A stretch of DNA of 64,000 nt from NCBI RefSeq assembly GCF_007753265.1, contig NZ_CP036349.1, positions 3,815,363 to 3,879,362 of the forward strand, read 5' to 3'. Made by a program: the position numbers and the translations under genes. Positions within the stretch are counted from its first letter, which is position 1. Each line of letters begins with the position of its first letter. The stretch comes from Botrimarina mediterranea. Its GTDB lineage: Bacteria; Planctomycetota; Planctomycetia; Pirellulales; Lacipirellulaceae. A model generated the notes under the pieces. The model was not told the origin of the DNA. It saw only the letters and a list, made by a program, of their open reading frames with translations, and did not search any database. Below are positions 18,296 to 59,940 of the stretch, piece after piece.

Positions 18296-18308
18296 GCACG
18301 TAATCTAG

Positions 18309-18383
18309 GAACCGGACGCTAAGGCGTGCCGGCTGATTGTGGCGCCAGACGCCCATTAGCCGCGGGGCCTTAGCCCCCGGTTC
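18309..18383. repeat. Inverted-repeat element, family A, copy 1
   Basis: A 75-base palindromic element. GAACCGGACGCTAAGGCGTG opens it and GGGGCCTTAGCCCCCGGTTC closes it, pairing imperfectly over about 29 bases through GGCTGAT/ATTAGCC. It fills the gap between two convergent genes. Closely similar copies lie at 26541-26613 and, inverted, 56451-56524. Confidence 0.85.
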
Positions 18384-26502: not shown

Positions 26503-26540
26503 TTAAACTTTGGTCCTGTGGAATTGCGTCGTAAGCGTAA

Positions 26541-26613
26541 GAACCGGACGCTAAGGCGTGCCGGCTGATCCCGCCAGCAAGCTTATCAGCCGCGGGGCCT
26601 TAGCCCCCGGTTC
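26541..26613. repeat. Inverted-repeat element, family A, copy 2
   Basis: A 73-base copy running from GAACCGGACGCTAAGGCGTG to GGGGCCTTAGCCCCCGGTTC, with the same arms as copy 1 but a better inner pair, GGCTGAT/ATCAGCC. It is followed 26 bases later by the family B pair, so the whole 420-base gap 26503-26922 is repeat DNA. Confidence 0.88.
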
Positions 26614-26639
26614 GATCACTTTAGGATGAATTGGTTTTA

Positions 26640-26899
26640 GGAAGGAGATAGGGGGATGTTGGTGATAGGGGGGATCGCAAGCGGGGGGGGTGAATTGCGC
26701 CGCGCAGCGAAACGCCTCTTGTAAGGCATGCGGTTCGTAGCGCCTCTGGAGATCGTAGAAAGCATTCGCAAAGCGACTGCCCCCAAATCTCCACCAGCAC
26801 CTACGAACCACATCGCTACCAGAACACATCAAAATCTCGTTGCTCTCAACCACCCGCTTGCGATCCCCCCTATCACCAACATCCCCACCATCTCCTTTC
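26640..26899. repeat. Family B inverted pair, copy 1 (no intact gene inside)
   Basis: The left arm (26640-26683) reads GGAAGGAGATAGGGGGATGT, then TGGTGATAGGGGGGATCGCA, then AGCG; the right arm (26855-26899) is its inverse with two to three differences. The 171 bases between carry no accepted gene. On the minus strand an open frame there (FANAFYDLQRRYEPHALQEA) could be a relic of a coding sequence once framed by the arms. The right arm ends 23 bases from the stop of the dehydrogenase gene. Confidence 0.85.
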
Positions 26900-34796: not shown

Positions 34797-35499
34797 GGAA
34801 AGGAGATAAAGGGGATGTTGGTGATAGGGGGGATCGCAAGCGGCCGGCGCAGCCGATTGCTGCACTGCGAACCTCCGGCGCATTGAGCGACTACTTTTTC
34901 TCTATCTCTAAGATGACGAACGAAGCGCGTCCCGCCACTCGTCTCACCGCGCTTGGCTTTGGTGAGACGTGGCGGAACCGTGGGACGCTCGCAGGTCTTG
35001 GGATCGTTTACGCCGTTACGGCAACGCTGATCTACTTGTCGGCAGAGCTTGGTAAATGGTCGCCGAGCTTCAGCCCCGTCGGACAGTCACTGGCGCTGGC
35101 AGTGGGATTCTTCTTCCTCCCGTCGCTCGCCGAAGAACTCTTTTGGCGCTGGCTGCTTATCCCGCCGAGTTGCTTTGACGGGAAAGCCGGACGAACAATC
35201 GGCTGGGTTCTCGCAACGGCGGCTGTCTTCACCGCAGCTCACCCGGTGGCGGGAACATTCTTCGTGCCGCATGCCCGCGAAATCTTTACGAACCCCGCGT
35301 TCCTGTTGATCGTCTACTTGCTCGGAGTTACCTGCGGAGCATCGTATGTCATCGCCCGTTCCATCTGGCCGCCAGTCGTTGTCCACTGGCTAACGGTCCT
35401 CGCCTGGAAGTTCCTCCTCGGCGGTCCCTTCGTCCTGCTAGGCCGCTGACCGCATCGCTTGCGATCCCCCCTATCACCAACATCCCCCTATCTCCTTCC
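34797..35499. repeat. Family B inverted pair framing a CPBP protease gene (copy 2)
   Basis: The left arm (34797-34842) reads GGAAAGGAGATAAAGGGGAT, then GTTGGTGATAGGGGGGATCG, then CAAGCG. The right arm (35456-35499) is its inverse with about four differences in 44 bases. One gene (34913-35449) lies between; its stop codon is six bases from the right arm. Directly outside the left arm, 34760-34785 holds half of a J element (GGCGAGCCGGCCACGTAAGT). Confidence 0.88.
34913..35449 (+). CDS. CPBP family intramembrane metalloprotease
   Basis: A 178-residue membrane protein of the CAAX-protease/bacteriocin-processing (CPBP, ABI) family. SLAEELFWRWLLIPP near residue 72 has the paired Glu and Arg of motif 1 (E-E-x-x-x-R). 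The following AAVFTAAHPVAG holds the motif-2 His, and PPVVVHWLTVLAWKF the motif-3 His, though the usual Asn/Asp four residues on is replaced, so activity is uncertain. The ATG at 34913 is used; a TTG ten codons earlier is possible. It is the only gene inside the family B inverted pair. Confidence 0.78.
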   Translation: MTNEARPATRLTALGFGETWRNRGTLAGLGIVYAVTATLIYLSAELGKWSPSFSPVGQSLALAVGFFFLPSLAEELFWRWLLIPPSCFDGKAGRTIGWVLATAAVFTAAHPVAGTFFVPHAREIFTNPAFLLIVYLLGVTCGASYVIARSIWPPVVVHWLTVLAWKFLLGGPFVLLGR

Positions 35500-35520
35500 C
35501 TAAACGCCACCACCAATAGA

Positions 35521-37379: not shown

Positions 37380-37385
37380 AGCTCG

Positions 37386-37470
37386 GTGGGAGGCATCTCC
37401 AGACGCCGATTAAGGTGTCCAGACCGATGGGGTGTGGTGCGCGAAATCGGGGTCTGGAGACCCGTCCCAC
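37386..37470. repeat. Inverted-repeat element, family C, copy 1
   Basis: An 85-base element. GTGGGAGGCATCTCCAGACG (then CCGATTA) and AATCGGGGTCTGGAGACCCG (then TCCCAC) pair over about 27 bases with a 30-base middle GTGTCCAGACCGATGGGGTG. It begins seven bases after the dapF stop. Other copies: 42391-42478, 44530-44615, 58923-59006. Confidence 0.88.
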
Positions 37471-37579
37471 AGCTTGCGATTCAATCGGTCTTTCGCCAAT
37501 CGGCGCGTTTTCGGTACGAATCGCGTCGGGATGCTGGCGCCGCGGAGCGGGCTGAGAAGCTAGGCACGGAAGCTGGGCG

Positions 37580-42390: not shown

Positions 42391-42478
42391 CTGTAGGAGG
42401 CGTCTCCAGACGCCGATTTCGCGCGCCACGCCGTCAACGGTTAGAAGCCGTAATCGGCGTCGGAGACGCCTCCTACAG
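42391..42478. repeat. Inverted-repeat element, family C, copy 2
   Basis: An 88-base copy. CTGTAGGAGGCGTCTCCAGA (then CGCCGATT) pairs with AATCGGCGTCGGAGACGCCT (then CCTACAG). Its arms carry compensating changes relative to the other copies (CGCC/GGCG where copy 3 has CCCC/GGGG), which is evidence that pairing is maintained. It is followed 23 bases later by an E element. Confidence 0.9.
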
Positions 42479-43588: not shown

Positions 43589-44443
43589 TCACGGCTTGCT
43601 AGCAACCGAAGTAGGCCCGTCCAGCAGCTTCTCCTCCAGGCGGGTCAACAGGTGCATGCTGCTGGTGGCGCCGGCAAAGCCAAGCACGCGGCGATCGACG
43701 TCGAGCCGCTGCGATAGAATTCGGCCGTTGTCGATGTCGAAGCGGATCTCGCCCTTCACCATCCGGTGGGCCATCTGGCCGTCGATCTCCGGCGTCGTCG
43801 GCGAGATCACCTGGAACTCGCTCTGGATCGTCGCCACGCCGGCGCTGACGCTCTTGAGTGTGTGCTTGCGGCGGGCGGCGATGGTCTTCTGTCCGCCATC
43901 GCCCACCTTCACCAACACGTCGATCGGCTGGTTCCACGAATCGCCGATCGCGATCGGGCCTTCTGGCAGCAGCAGAGTCACTTGCTCGTGCGGGTCCGCG
44001 GCGGGCTGGTGGTGCTTGATGTCGCGGCCCTTCACCTCGCCACGCGGCGACATCCGGATCGAGCTGAGCGGCACGCCCACCGCGCGGGCGGCGTCCTCAA
44101 ACCCCGGAGGCGGCTCTTCGCCGCTGGTGCTATCAAAGACCATTGCCGCGCGGTCGGGGAGCTTGTTCTCCATCCGCACGCGTTCGACGAGGTTGAGAAA
44201 CTCGATCTCGCCATCAGGCGTGACGTCGATCACCTTCCACACCTTGAGCGAGACCGTCTTGGTCTGCGCTTCTTGGGTGGTCCCTTCCATCGAGTTGGTG
44301 ACGCTCGAGCGCTGATCCACTTCCCAGCGGAGCGTGTCGCCCGTCTTGAACTTGTACTGGAGAAGATGCTTGCCCCCCTCCTCCGCTAGCACGCAGAGAG
44401 GCAGGGCAAGGGCGAGAACGAGCGATGCTAGCTGGCGGGTCAT
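43589..44443 (-). CDS. Secreted DUF6263-like protein (paralog of 28702-29712)
   Basis: A 284-residue exported protein starting MTRQLASLVLALALPLCVLA, a signal peptide cleaved near AEEGG. The first mature segment HLLQYKFKTGDTLRWEVDQR parallels the W-K-W-x-K-G-D start of the other DUF6263-like protein. LPEGPIAIGDSWNQPIDVLV and MVKGEIRFDIDNGRILSQRL match its middle and late motifs in the same order. The 78 codons upstream in the longest frame are translated from C and E repeats (PLCLCASVPLCLCAS) and are not real coding. Function unknown. Confidence 0.75.
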   Translation of the reverse strand: MTRQLASLVLALALPLCVLAEEGGKHLLQYKFKTGDTLRWEVDQRSSVTNSMEGTTQEAQTKTVSLKVWKVIDVTPDGEIEFLNLVERVRMENKLPDRAAMVFDSTSGEEPPPGFEDAARAVGVPLSSIRMSPRGEVKGRDIKHHQPAADPHEQVTLLLPEGPIAIGDSWNQPIDVLVKVGDGGQKTIAARRKHTLKSVSAGVATIQSEFQVISPTTPEIDGQMAHRMVKGEIRFDIDNGRILSQRLDVDRRVLGFAGATSSMHLLTRLEEKLLDGPTSVASKP

Positions 44444-44529
44444 GTCGTGCCATCCTTGGCTTGCACATGGAGTCGATGGGAGAACGCTAACGATGACCGA
44501 TGGGCGGCGATCGATGGAAGCCCAAAATT

Positions 44530-44615
44530 GTGGGAGGTGTCTCCAGACCCCGATTACGGTATCCCGGCCGAAGACGGCGTGGTGCGCGTAATCGGGGTCT
44601 GGAGACTCCTCCCAC
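44530..44615. repeat. Inverted-repeat element, family C, copy 3
   Basis: An 86-base copy. GTGGGAGGTGTCTCCAGACC (then CCGATTACG) and CGTAATCGGGGTCTGGAGAC (then TCCTCCCAC) form arms of about 29 bases. It lies nine bases before E copy 2, so 44530-44769 is continuous palindromic DNA between the DUF6263-like gene and nadK. Confidence 0.9.
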
Positions 44616-44623
44616 TTTAATGA

Positions 44624-44769
44624 AACCACAGAGGCACAGAGGCACAGAGGCACAGAGGCACAGAGGCACAGAGGCACAGAGGCACAGAGGCACAGAGAGC
44701 ACTGAGGAAGACACAGAGAAGCAGCAAGAGCACTTAGCGTCCCTCAGTGCCTTCTGTGCCTCTGTGGTT
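44624..44769. repeat. Family E element, copy 2, with an 8-base minisatellite
   Basis: The left arm is AACCACAGAGG with the unit CACAGAGG repeated eight times exactly plus one variant (44627-44698). The right arm ends TGCCTTCTGTGCCTCTGTGG and TT (to 44769) and can pair with only part of the left. The extra units are therefore a tandem expansion inside one arm. It ends 17 bases from the nadK stop. Confidence 0.9.
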
Positions 44770-48062: not shown

Positions 48063-48150
48063 CGGCTGGTGGGCTTAAGAAAGGAGCAAAAAAGCTTCCG
48101 CAAGTGAGTCGCGTCGTGTCAACGCGGTACACATCGGTTGGGGCTTTAGA

Positions 48151-48412
48151 AGAAGGAGAGCGGGGGATGTTGGTGATAGGGGGGATCGGAAGCGGTCGGT
48201 ACAGGGTGACGGTGAGGCGGTATCGATCAACGTAGGGCAGGCCTCGCCTGCCATGGAAGTAGAGTTGACTCGTGCCGGCGGCAGGCGAGGCCTGCCCTAC
48301 GAAATTATTCTGGTCACAGGATTGGCTAGAACCACTTATCGGCGTGATCTAGGAATTGCCTAACCCACTAGCTTGCGATCCCCCTATCACCAACATCCCC
48401 CTATCTCCTTTC
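48151..48412. repeat. Family B inverted pair enclosing a family I palindrome (copy 3)
   Basis: The B arms lie at 48151-48194 (AGAAGGAGAGCGGGGGATGT, TGGTGATAGGGGGGATCGGA, AGCG) and 48371-48412 (inverse). Inside, 48231-48252 (CGTAGGGCAGGCCTCGCCTG, CC) and 48280-48301 form a perfect 22-base inverted repeat of another family (I). The 361-base gap between ispA and dxs is thus mostly nested palindromes; I see no gene in it. A promoter for dxs must lie in or beside the left arm. Confidence 0.9.
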
Positions 48413-48423
48413 CTAAATTCACC

Positions 48424-56301: not shown

Positions 56302-56450
56302 AGGAAACGAATCGCTGGTTGAGGGGAAGACTCTCCAGCTTAATCGGCCGAGCGGGCCTTCGCATGCCCCCGCCGTCTCGGTTCTAGTCCGTTGCCTCGT
56401 GCCGGGGGTGAGACCGCTTGCGCTTGTGAGACCTGAGGCTTGAGGCAAGA

Positions 56451-56524
56451 GAACCGGGGGCTAAGGCCCCGCGGCTGATGGTCCTTACCAGCAAGATCAG
56501 CCGGCACGCCTTAGCGTCCGGTTC
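56451..56524. repeat. Inverted-repeat element, family A, copy 3 (opposite orientation)
   Basis: A 74-base copy running from GAACCGGGGGCTAAGGCCCC to CACGCCTTAGCGTCCGGTTC, which is the reverse complement of copies 1 and 2. It lies between the ABC permease and the NPCBM gene. The rest of the 324-base gap 56302-56625 shows no gene. Confidence 0.88.
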
Positions 56525-56625
56525 TTCGGCGCCGGATTCGACTTAGGACGATTGATGCAGGATGCACATCAGGACAAGCCCTGAGCCCGCTTTCGCTCTC
56601 CCCCGTCCCTCGTCCCAACCTTCCG

Positions 56626-57893: not shown

Positions 57894-59045
57894 CTAACGC
57901 TGAAAGATCGGCAGTTGATTGTTTGGCGTTTGCAAGATGACACACGCCATCGCCGTGCCGTACGCCGACCCATTGCCGTCCTGCCAAGACCCGTCGCCCA
58001 GCTGCGCGCCGATCAACAGGTCGCGGATCGTCGGGTACCAGCGGTCCCAGCGGTCGCCGCCAGCCTGCCACATCGCCTGCACGGCGTAGTAGTGGCCGTA
58101 GTAAAAGTGACCCGCACGCGACGCCCGATCGCCAACCGGCAGCTGCCGATCAAGATACAACAGCCCACGCTCAACCGCGTCGTCGTCGTAGACGCCCGCG
58201 CTGTAGAGCGCCACGACGCCCGCCGCCGAACGTGGGAACTGGCTCGAACGGTCACGGGGCGTGTAGCCGAACCCGCCGTCCTCGACCTGGCAACGCTTCA
58301 CGTACGCGATGCAGCGATCGACCACTTCCGCCGGCACATGGATTCCTGCGTTCCGCGCCGCCCGTAACGCCATGATCTGGCAGATCGTCACGCTGATGTC
58401 GGCGTCGGTCGGCACGGGCTGGTAACGCCAACCCCCTTCGGGATTCTGCGCCGAGACGATCAGCCGCACCGAGGCGGCGACCTTCTCGCGCAAGTCGTCG
58501 CGCGGCGACATGCCATACGCCTCAGCGAGGAACAGCGCCGCAAAGCCGTGCCCGTACATTGGCCCGTGGCTCGTAGCGCCGCCGACAGCGATGAACCCGC
58601 TGGGCTGGGTGTTCTCGCAGAGGTAATCGACGCAGCGCTGCGCGTTCTCGCCGTAAGGCCCGCGGTCGGGCGTACTCCCGCTAGCCAGAAACGCCATCCC
58701 CGCCAGCGCGACGATCGCCGGGTTGTTCCCCATCTGCTGACCACGACCGCCGAACGACCCGTCGGCGAGCTGCGCCTCGGCCAAGTAACGCAACCCGCGG
58801 TCGATCGAGCGGTCCGCCGGCGCGACCATCTCCAGCGCGGTCTCGTCGGGCGTCGCCCCCTCAGCGGCTTCGACAGACGCCAATGGCAGCGTGAGTAGGG
58901 CGCCCACCAGCAAAAGCAATCGCGGGAGGGGTCTCCAGACCCCGATCACGGCATCCATACCGAAACGGCATGGTGCGCGTAATCGGGGTCGGGAGACCCC
59001 TCCCACAAAATCGGTTCGAACTGCCGCCGCAAGCTGCCGTGTCAC
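57894..59045 (-). CDS. Prenyltransferase/squalene-oxidase repeat protein with a repeat-derived N-terminus
   Basis: A 383-residue exported alpha-toroid protein. Repeats with the Q-x-x-x-G-x-F/W pattern are visible: AQLADGSFGGRG, AQNPEGGWRYQP, CQVEDGGFGYTP, AQLGDGSWQDGN. No D-x-D-D or cyclase motif is seen, so it is likely a structural relative rather than a terpene cyclase. The GTG start overlaps the upstream stop as GTGA. Residues 12-41 (FVGGVSRPRLRAPCRFGMDA, VIGVWRPLPR) are encoded by a C element (58923-59006), after which the hydrophobic signal core LLLLVGALLTLPLASVEA follows. An internal ATG at 58958, also within the element, is the alternative start. Confidence 0.8.
   Translation of the reverse strand: MTRQLAAAVRTDFVGGVSRPRLRAPCRFGMDAVIGVWRPLPRLLLLVGALLTLPLASVEAAEGATPDETALEMVAPADRSIDRGLRYLAEAQLADGSFGGRGQQMGNNPAIVALAGMAFLASGSTPDRGPYGENAQRCVDYLCENTQPSGFIAVGGATSHGPMYGHGFAALFLAEAYGMSPRDDLREKVAASVRLIVSAQNPEGGWRYQPVPTDADISVTICQIMALRAARNAGIHVPAEVVDRCIAYVKRCQVEDGGFGYTPRDRSSQFPRSAAGVVALYSAGVYDDDAVERGLLYLDRQLPVGDRASRAGHFYYGHYYAVQAMWQAGGDRWDRWYPTIRDLLIGAQLGDGSWQDGNGSAYGTAMACVILQTPNNQLPIFQR
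58923..59006. repeat. Inverted-repeat element, family C, copy 4, inside a coding sequence
   Basis: An 84-base copy. CGGGAGGGGTCTCCAGACCC (then CGATCACG) pairs with CGTAATCGGGGTCGGGAGAC (then CCCTCCCAC). It is the same length as the intergenic copies but falls within the first 45 codons of the prenyltransferase-like gene without breaking the reading frame (length 84, a multiple of three). Confidence 0.9.
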
Positions 59046-59797
59046 GGCGCCTCCCGGCTCGAGCGCTCCGCGAGGCGGCGGTAGTACTGCTGCAACTCGT
59101 CACGGTACTCGGGCAGGAACTCGCTGTCGGACCCTTGCAGCATCCGCTCACGCATCCGCTCGGGGAGGTGACCCCACGCGGCCTTGAGCAGCTCTTGTTG
59201 CTCGGCCGGGTCGGTGTCGGAAATGCCGGCGTTGCTGCCGCTCGTGCCCGACTGGTTCGCCTTCTGGGCGAGCTTCTTCGACGCCTGCGCCGGCTTCTTG
59301 CCTTCGCCCTGCTTTTTACCTTCGCCCGGCTTCGGCTGGCTGCGCTTCGAGGCCTGCTTCTCTTGGTCCGATGGCGGCTTGTTGCAGTTGCCGCCCTGGC
59401 ACTGCTTCTCCATCTCGGCGATCAACTGGTCGAGCCGCGTGACGACCTGCTTCTGAACCGGCACGGCGGGCTTAACCTTCGCGTCGTCCCGGATCAGCGA
59501 CTCGGCTTGGCGCATGCCGTTGACGACGCCCGCCAGCGGCGACTCGCCAACGTCCTCCCCCGCCGTCTCTGCGCCGCCTTGCTTGAGCAGGCGGTCGAGC
59601 ATCTCGTCGCGTGGAACAAAGGCCCCGGGCCCCGCGGGTTCAGGCCGTGCTTCCGGCGCGGGCGACAGCGACTTCGCCAAGTCATCGTCGAGCAGGCTGT
59701 CGCCTAGGTTGCCAACCACCGGCGCCGGCGCGGCAGCAGCGATCAGCGGCAAGCACCAGAGGGTGAGCAGCGCGATCAGGCCTTTTCGCTTCGACAT
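59042..59797 (-). CDS. Secreted low-complexity protein of the envelope block
   Basis: A 251-residue exported protein. MSKRKGLIALLTLWCLPLIA is a signal peptide cleaved near AAAAP; the 31 codons before it come from spacer with an I-type repeat. The middle (residues 120-185) is rich in Lys, Gln, Pro and Gly (KRSQPKPGEGKKQGEGKKPA). A conserved C-terminal helix pair (LLKAAWGHLPERMRERMLQG, EYRDELQQYYRRLAERSS) resembles the end of other planctomycete proteins encoded beside DUF4175-type genes. Its stop overlaps the GTG of the next gene. Function unknown; probably an accessory of the large coiled-coil membrane protein upstream. Confidence 0.7.
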   Translation of the reverse strand: MSKRKGLIALLTLWCLPLIAAAAPAPVVGNLGDSLLDDDLAKSLSPAPEARPEPAGPGAFVPRDEMLDRLLKQGGAETAGEDVGESPLAGVVNGMRQAESLIRDDAKVKPAVPVQKQVVTRLDQLIAEMEKQCQGGNCNKPPSDQEKQASKRSQPKPGEGKKQGEGKKPAQASKKLAQKANQSGTSGSNAGISDTDPAEQQELLKAAWGHLPERMRERMLQGSDSEFLPEYRDELQQYYRRLAERSSREAP

Positions 59798-59815
59798 CGG
59801 ATGCTCCGTGCGGGC

Positions 59816-59880
59816 GTGGGGCAGGCCGCGCCTGCCAGAACTCGAATCCATCGCAACGCGGCAGGCGGGGGCCGCCCAAC
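59816..59880. repeat. Inverted-repeat element, family I, copy 2
   Basis: GTGGGGCAGGCCGCGCCTGC at the left and GGCAGGCGGGGGCCGCCCAA at the right form a 65-base imperfect palindrome related to the perfect 22-base pair at 48231-48301. It lies just upstream of the start of the secreted low-complexity protein. Confidence 0.7.
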
Positions 59881-59940
59881 AACGCTGCAATTATAGCAAA
59901 TTGGCGCCAACGCCTCGAATCGAAATAGCCACTATTAGGC

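Follow-up and report, generated by a model that had tools for sequence, protein, structure and literature searches.

The prenyltransferase-like gene studied here raises the question of how a near-perfect palindrome came to occupy codons 13-42 of an open reading frame (57894-59045), and how the gene is then translated. The window is the whole stretch of Botrimarina mediterranea DNA that was analysed, 64,000 nucleotides long, and positions refer to it unless a genome position is given. With the palindrome read through, the frame encodes 383 amino acids; the protein scores above cut-off for Pfam PF13243 and PF00432, and a homologue (E <= 1e-30) was found in 97 of the 97 genomes of the order searched. 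The two closest orthologues are those of Botrimarina colliarenosi Pla108 (G001) and of G003. The locus contains the following features.

57894-59045, minus strand: host gene, exported prenyltransferase / squalene-hopene-cyclase-like alpha-alpha toroid protein (Pfam)
59042-59890, minus strand: upstream gene, same putative operon
59050-59055, minus strand: Shine-Dalgarno-like GGGAGG ahead of the GTG (GGGAGG in G001, CGGAGT in G003)
59043-59045, minus strand: GTG start overlapping the upstream TGA (GTGA), overlap conserved in G001 and G003
58921-59007, minus strand: REPIN (C element), arms and spacer, 87 nt (family alignment, model, hairpin)
58982-59007, minus strand: REP arm 1, TGTGGGAGGGGTCTCCCGACCCCGAT
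58956-58958, minus strand: alternative in-frame ATG within the element, residue 30
58921-58946, plus strand: REP arm 2 (inverted), CGCGGGAGGGGTCTCCAGACCCCGAT
58866-58919, minus strand: hydrophobic core and cleavage region, LLLLVGALLTLPLASVEA

The palindromic C element is a REPIN, built from two inverted GT(G/A)G-tagged REP arms and a fixed spacer. The first-pass annotation had described an 84-nt element at 58923-59006; the palindrome stands, while comparison with the family moves its ends to 58921-59007 and its length to 87 nt, which, as had been stated for the shorter version, is divisible by three and free of stops in the frame of the gene. Folded as RNA, 58921-59007 forms a hairpin of -80.8 kcal/mol (z -11.9; shuffles averaged -36.6, with 0 of 200 as good). 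Of 252 arms, 238 have complementary letters in the pair GG[x]GTC..GAC[y]CC, while the variable position agrees between the two arms of an element in just 70 of 126 copies. Because this stem pair covaries within arms and the two arms are nearly independent, each arm constitutes its own REP hairpin and the pair a REPIN. The foot of the arm, TGT(G/A)GGAGG, has fixed bases that are each more than 90% conserved and a variable base that is G in 78% and A in 21%; it is the tag of the GTAG superfamily, with GTGG as the prevailing variant. The base preceding the foot is C or T in 86%, which would be compatible with the CT known as the TnpA-REP cleavage site (PMC8266576). Target site duplications of at least 4 nt were found in 0 of 126 copies, which speaks against a MITE moved by a DDE transposase and is what RAYT/HUH elements would show. 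A search for Rfam RNA families returned nothing over the gathering score (microRNA-hairpin and isrG matches were sub-threshold only), and a phage gene reading was considered and dropped.

The genome is a single contig of 5,871,207 bases. Arms GGAGGNGTCTCCNGACNCCGAT at <=2 mismatches occur 291 times genome-wide (145 + 146), against 0 for the control; the copy number is about 150, and a model search of the whole genome located the element at no fewer than about 75 places. Paired copies were counted in a census covering 2.68 of the 5.87 Mb, made up of regions around known copies and one contiguous stretch. It contains 126 paired copies, 117 of which are 87 nt (82) or 88 nt (35) long, and 19 high-quality single arms, doublets being the main form. 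The family is mainly extragenic: 115 of the 126 copies are free of called genes and 3 lie within genes, in sampled DNA that is 82% coding. Tandem, convergent and divergent gene gaps hold 78, 28 and 9 copies against a background of 891, 207 and 278, so that convergent gaps hold more copies than expected and divergent gaps fewer. This distribution, as in transcribed REPs (PMC3733652), and the very high stability of the hairpin would suit an element whose main effect is at the RNA level, where a hairpin within the polycistronic message would reduce expression of the downstream gene or uncouple it, through RNase III or attenuation, its open frame being incidental. Such a role leaves unexplained why the in-gene copies all keep the frame, two of them shared or paralleled in other species (see below), and we consider it very improbable as the main explanation.

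Three further copies lie in the window.

37385-37471, unstranded: further REPIN copy, intergenic by gene call
42392-42477, unstranded: further REPIN copy, 1-nt deletion in one arm
44529-44616, unstranded: further REPIN copy, intergenic by gene call

A tandem array of the 8-mer CACAGAGG adjoins a REPIN copy at window 44619-44706. The window also carries a second inverted-repeat family (GAAGGAGATAGGGGGATGTTGGTGATAGGGGGGATCGCAAGCGG), with three pairs at 26634-26899, 34798-35517 and 48133-48417 whose arms are ~160-610 nt apart, and a third dispersed repeat (AACCGGACGCTAAGGCGTGCCGGCTGAT and related sequences), which occurs in either orientation, at 18306-18337, 26538-26569 and 56448-56526.

The likely mobiliser of the family is a Y1 transposase gene at genome position G000:C1:939718-940221, a RAYT present as a single copy (103.6 bits against NF047646 REP_Tyr_transpos, cut-off 80), since the same arms, in inverted orientation, enclose it. 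It is directly adjacent to these C-type arms; it begins with the ATG of the spacer CACCATGCCG / GCGCACCATGCCG and ends with the TAA of the opposite arm, CCGTAATCGG, and both of these sequences are present in the REPIN. To judge from this shared sequence, the REPIN looks like a RAYT unit minus its middle. No arm of the family was found within 1.5 kb of any other Y1 transposase gene in the genome. G001 and G003 carry single RAYT orthologues in the same flanking-arm arrangement, and the RAYTs of more distant relatives lie between compensated arms of their own. The congener Botrimarina G002 gave neither a RAYT match nor a REPIN model match. Two other genomes (G006 and G007) gave tens of REPIN model matches, with no close RAYT relative at E<=1e-15; their elements may depend on a RAYT that is more distantly related, or be orphans. 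Single-copy RAYTs with inverted lineage-specific REP arms were seen in seven genomes of the order, and in several of the seven the gene next to the RAYT starts MKNVVAVILGGG (glgC-like).

That the element had jumped into the gene without breaking its frame was an early proposal, made together with the suggestion that orthologues be compared for absence of the segment. In this comparison the orthologues of G001 and G003 lack the REPIN at this site and both keep the GTGA overlap, and the DNA of G001 is nearly identical to that of B. mediterranea up to the GTGA, including GGGAGGCGCC ahead of it. Since the two nearest species keep the overlap without the element, the insertion appears recent, and the alignments support a date after the split from B. 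colliarenosi. These orthologues, and the membership of the element in a REPIN family that has many copies and a RAYT of its own, bear the proposal out. Taking the element away was also predicted to restore a normal signal peptide; the flanks minus 87 nt read MTRQLAAAVRTDLLLLLVGALLTLPLASVEA, an ordinary signal peptide, and the other gene said to start with MTRQLA and a hydrophobic core is present at 44443. The insertion was seen at this site in one genome only. Repeat copies are prone to misassembly, and an insertion might have turned the gene into a pseudogene; the host frame outside the element is nevertheless intact and 89% identical to that of G001, the genome is one contig, and other genes and other species show the same arrangement, so that a dead gene or a misplaced repeat is scarcely credible.

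Is preservation of the frame special to this gene? A search for other in-frame C copies, which had also been suggested, found at least two in the genome.

G000:C1:384115-384201: in-frame REPIN in GluQRS (NCBIfam), in the loop that follows the CRP motif
G000:C1:4693087-4693173: in-frame REPIN in the Pro/Lys-rich linker of a VWA-domain protein

All three in-gene copies in the census of 126 (host gene, GluQRS, VWA gene) keep the frame. The GluQRS of G003 has an element in the same loop, again of 29 codons and in frame; none was found at this loop in G001, G002 and others compared, so that either one old insertion was lost in G001 or two insertions occurred independently. In G001 the VWA gene also carries this insertion: the upstream flank and the right arm match, and 18 nt of one arm are missing without a change of frame. 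By this comparison the copy is ancestral and kept in frame across speciation. Across the census, copy length is divisible by three in 84 of 126 cases (67%) and 61% of the frames through copies are stop-free. The prior for a copy that is both divisible by three and open is therefore ~0.4, which makes these properties weak evidence alone, and openness does not show selection; three of three in frame has a ~7% chance even without it. Several other candidates were set aside. At genome positions 589577, 640704, 5267361, 5418738 and 5692358 an apparent N-terminal extension gave way to a likelier gene start downstream of the element, as did those at 887261 and 951532; the copy at 1054270 overlaps a weak ORF only, and the single arm at 4940585 overlaps a kinase-like ORF in a 5' extension that is itself doubtful.

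Where translation of the host gene begins decides what the insertion encodes. The overlap of the GTG with the upstream TGA was confirmed, the GTGA being shared with the stop of ORF 59042-59890. A start at ATG 58958 would yield MDAVIGVWRPLPR and the hydrophobic core, that is, a normal 31-residue signal peptide (MDAVIGVWRPLPRLLLLVGALLTLPLASVEA) with two Arg before the core, so that the REPIN would have supplied a new start and left the GTG and 11 codons as a leader. This ATG is the start chosen by the dicodon gene caller, and many N-terminal REPs are extragenic, with translation starting downstream of them (Di Nocera et al. 2013, PMC3733652). However, no Shine-Dalgarno-like sequence was found before 58958 and this ATG is base-paired within the hairpin stem, whereas the conserved upstream Shine-Dalgarno sequence and GTG are intact and the frame is open through the element. 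The caller also chose an in-element start in the five copies with a likelier downstream start, and its preference for ATG 58958 thus carries little weight. On these sequence features we favour translation from GTG 59045, and hold a new start within the element to be a credible but unlikely alternative.

Taken together, we think it fairly probable that a REPIN recently mobilised by the RAYT is read through from the GTG as part of a cleaved presequence that leaves the mature protein unchanged. In this model the single-copy RAYT would mobilise the non-autonomous REPIN, a copy of which would enter the signal-peptide coding region at the junction of n-region and hydrophobic core, adding exactly 29 codons, stop-free in the host frame, before the core. 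Translation would still start at the conserved GTG, with its upstream-stop overlap and good Shine-Dalgarno sequence, and read through the element. The predicted product has an Arg-rich presequence of ~60 residues, still cleaved after ...SVEA; VGGVSRPR and RAPCRFGMDAVIGV are segments of this GTG-started precursor, and the Arg-rich insert appears compatible with a cleaved n-region. Because the insert would lie in the cleaved part, the mature protein would be unchanged and the copy tolerated. The element family, the RAYT with matching arms, the absence from orthologues, the open frame and the conserved start context are observations, from which we infer mobilisation by the RAYT, read-through, export and cleavage. 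The early claim that the n-region had been lengthened by about 28 residues was right as to the frame (29 codons, stop-free), and the longer n-region itself is a plausible prediction. The hairpin (-80 kcal/mol) begins ~38 nt past the GTG, where it could hinder translation or be cut. A bolder proposal is that the REPIN has been co-opted, the two alternative N-termini, from the GTG and from the ATG of the element, together with a translation-setting hairpin forming a regulatory signal-peptide module, and the family, at 29 codons and mostly stop-free, serving as a recurrent source of species-spanning protein segments; we regard this as improbable.

With sister species that do not carry the element, the locus provides a clear case in which a REPIN entered a gene and, on our favoured reading, was tolerated where it would be least harmful, and the VWA copy indicates that in-gene REPINs of Botrimarina can outlast speciation in frame. 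Translation through a 40-bp hairpin and export with a lengthened signal sequence become testable here.

REPIN/RAYT systems were described in P. fluorescens SBW25 (Bertels and Rainey 2011, PMC3116915). Like the SBW25 REPINs, the present elements have inverted REP arms, a conserved spacer length, a hairpin and many copies, are overwhelmingly extragenic, and are accompanied by a RAYT flanked by matching arms. Unlike them, they reside in Botrimarina (Planctomycetota), measure 87/88 nt and include a few in-frame copies within genes, and in Botrimarina the RAYTs have start and stop codons that belong to arm and spacer sequence. Di Nocera et al. (2013) reported intragenic GTAG-tagged REP dimers that encode 20-30 residues in frame, tRNA synthetases included, and GTAG repeats from the PVC superphylum; they considered many N-terminal cases doubtful owing to start-site misannotation, and a term search of their main text retrieved no mention of a signal-peptide case (PMC3733652). 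Our cases differ from theirs in family and organism and in the ancestral in-gene copy common to species. Rickettsia palindromic elements are ~150 bp long, with nearly half of the copies within genes (PMC10969869), against 3 of 126 here, and proteins with an N-terminal RPE-1 are expressed (PMC3733652). The likeness to them is one of in-frame behaviour only, as palindromes tolerated in frame in many unrelated proteins (PMC10969869, PMC3733652). In-gene REP dimers and in-frame Rickettsia elements are already known; what is new here is another lineage and an unusual position.
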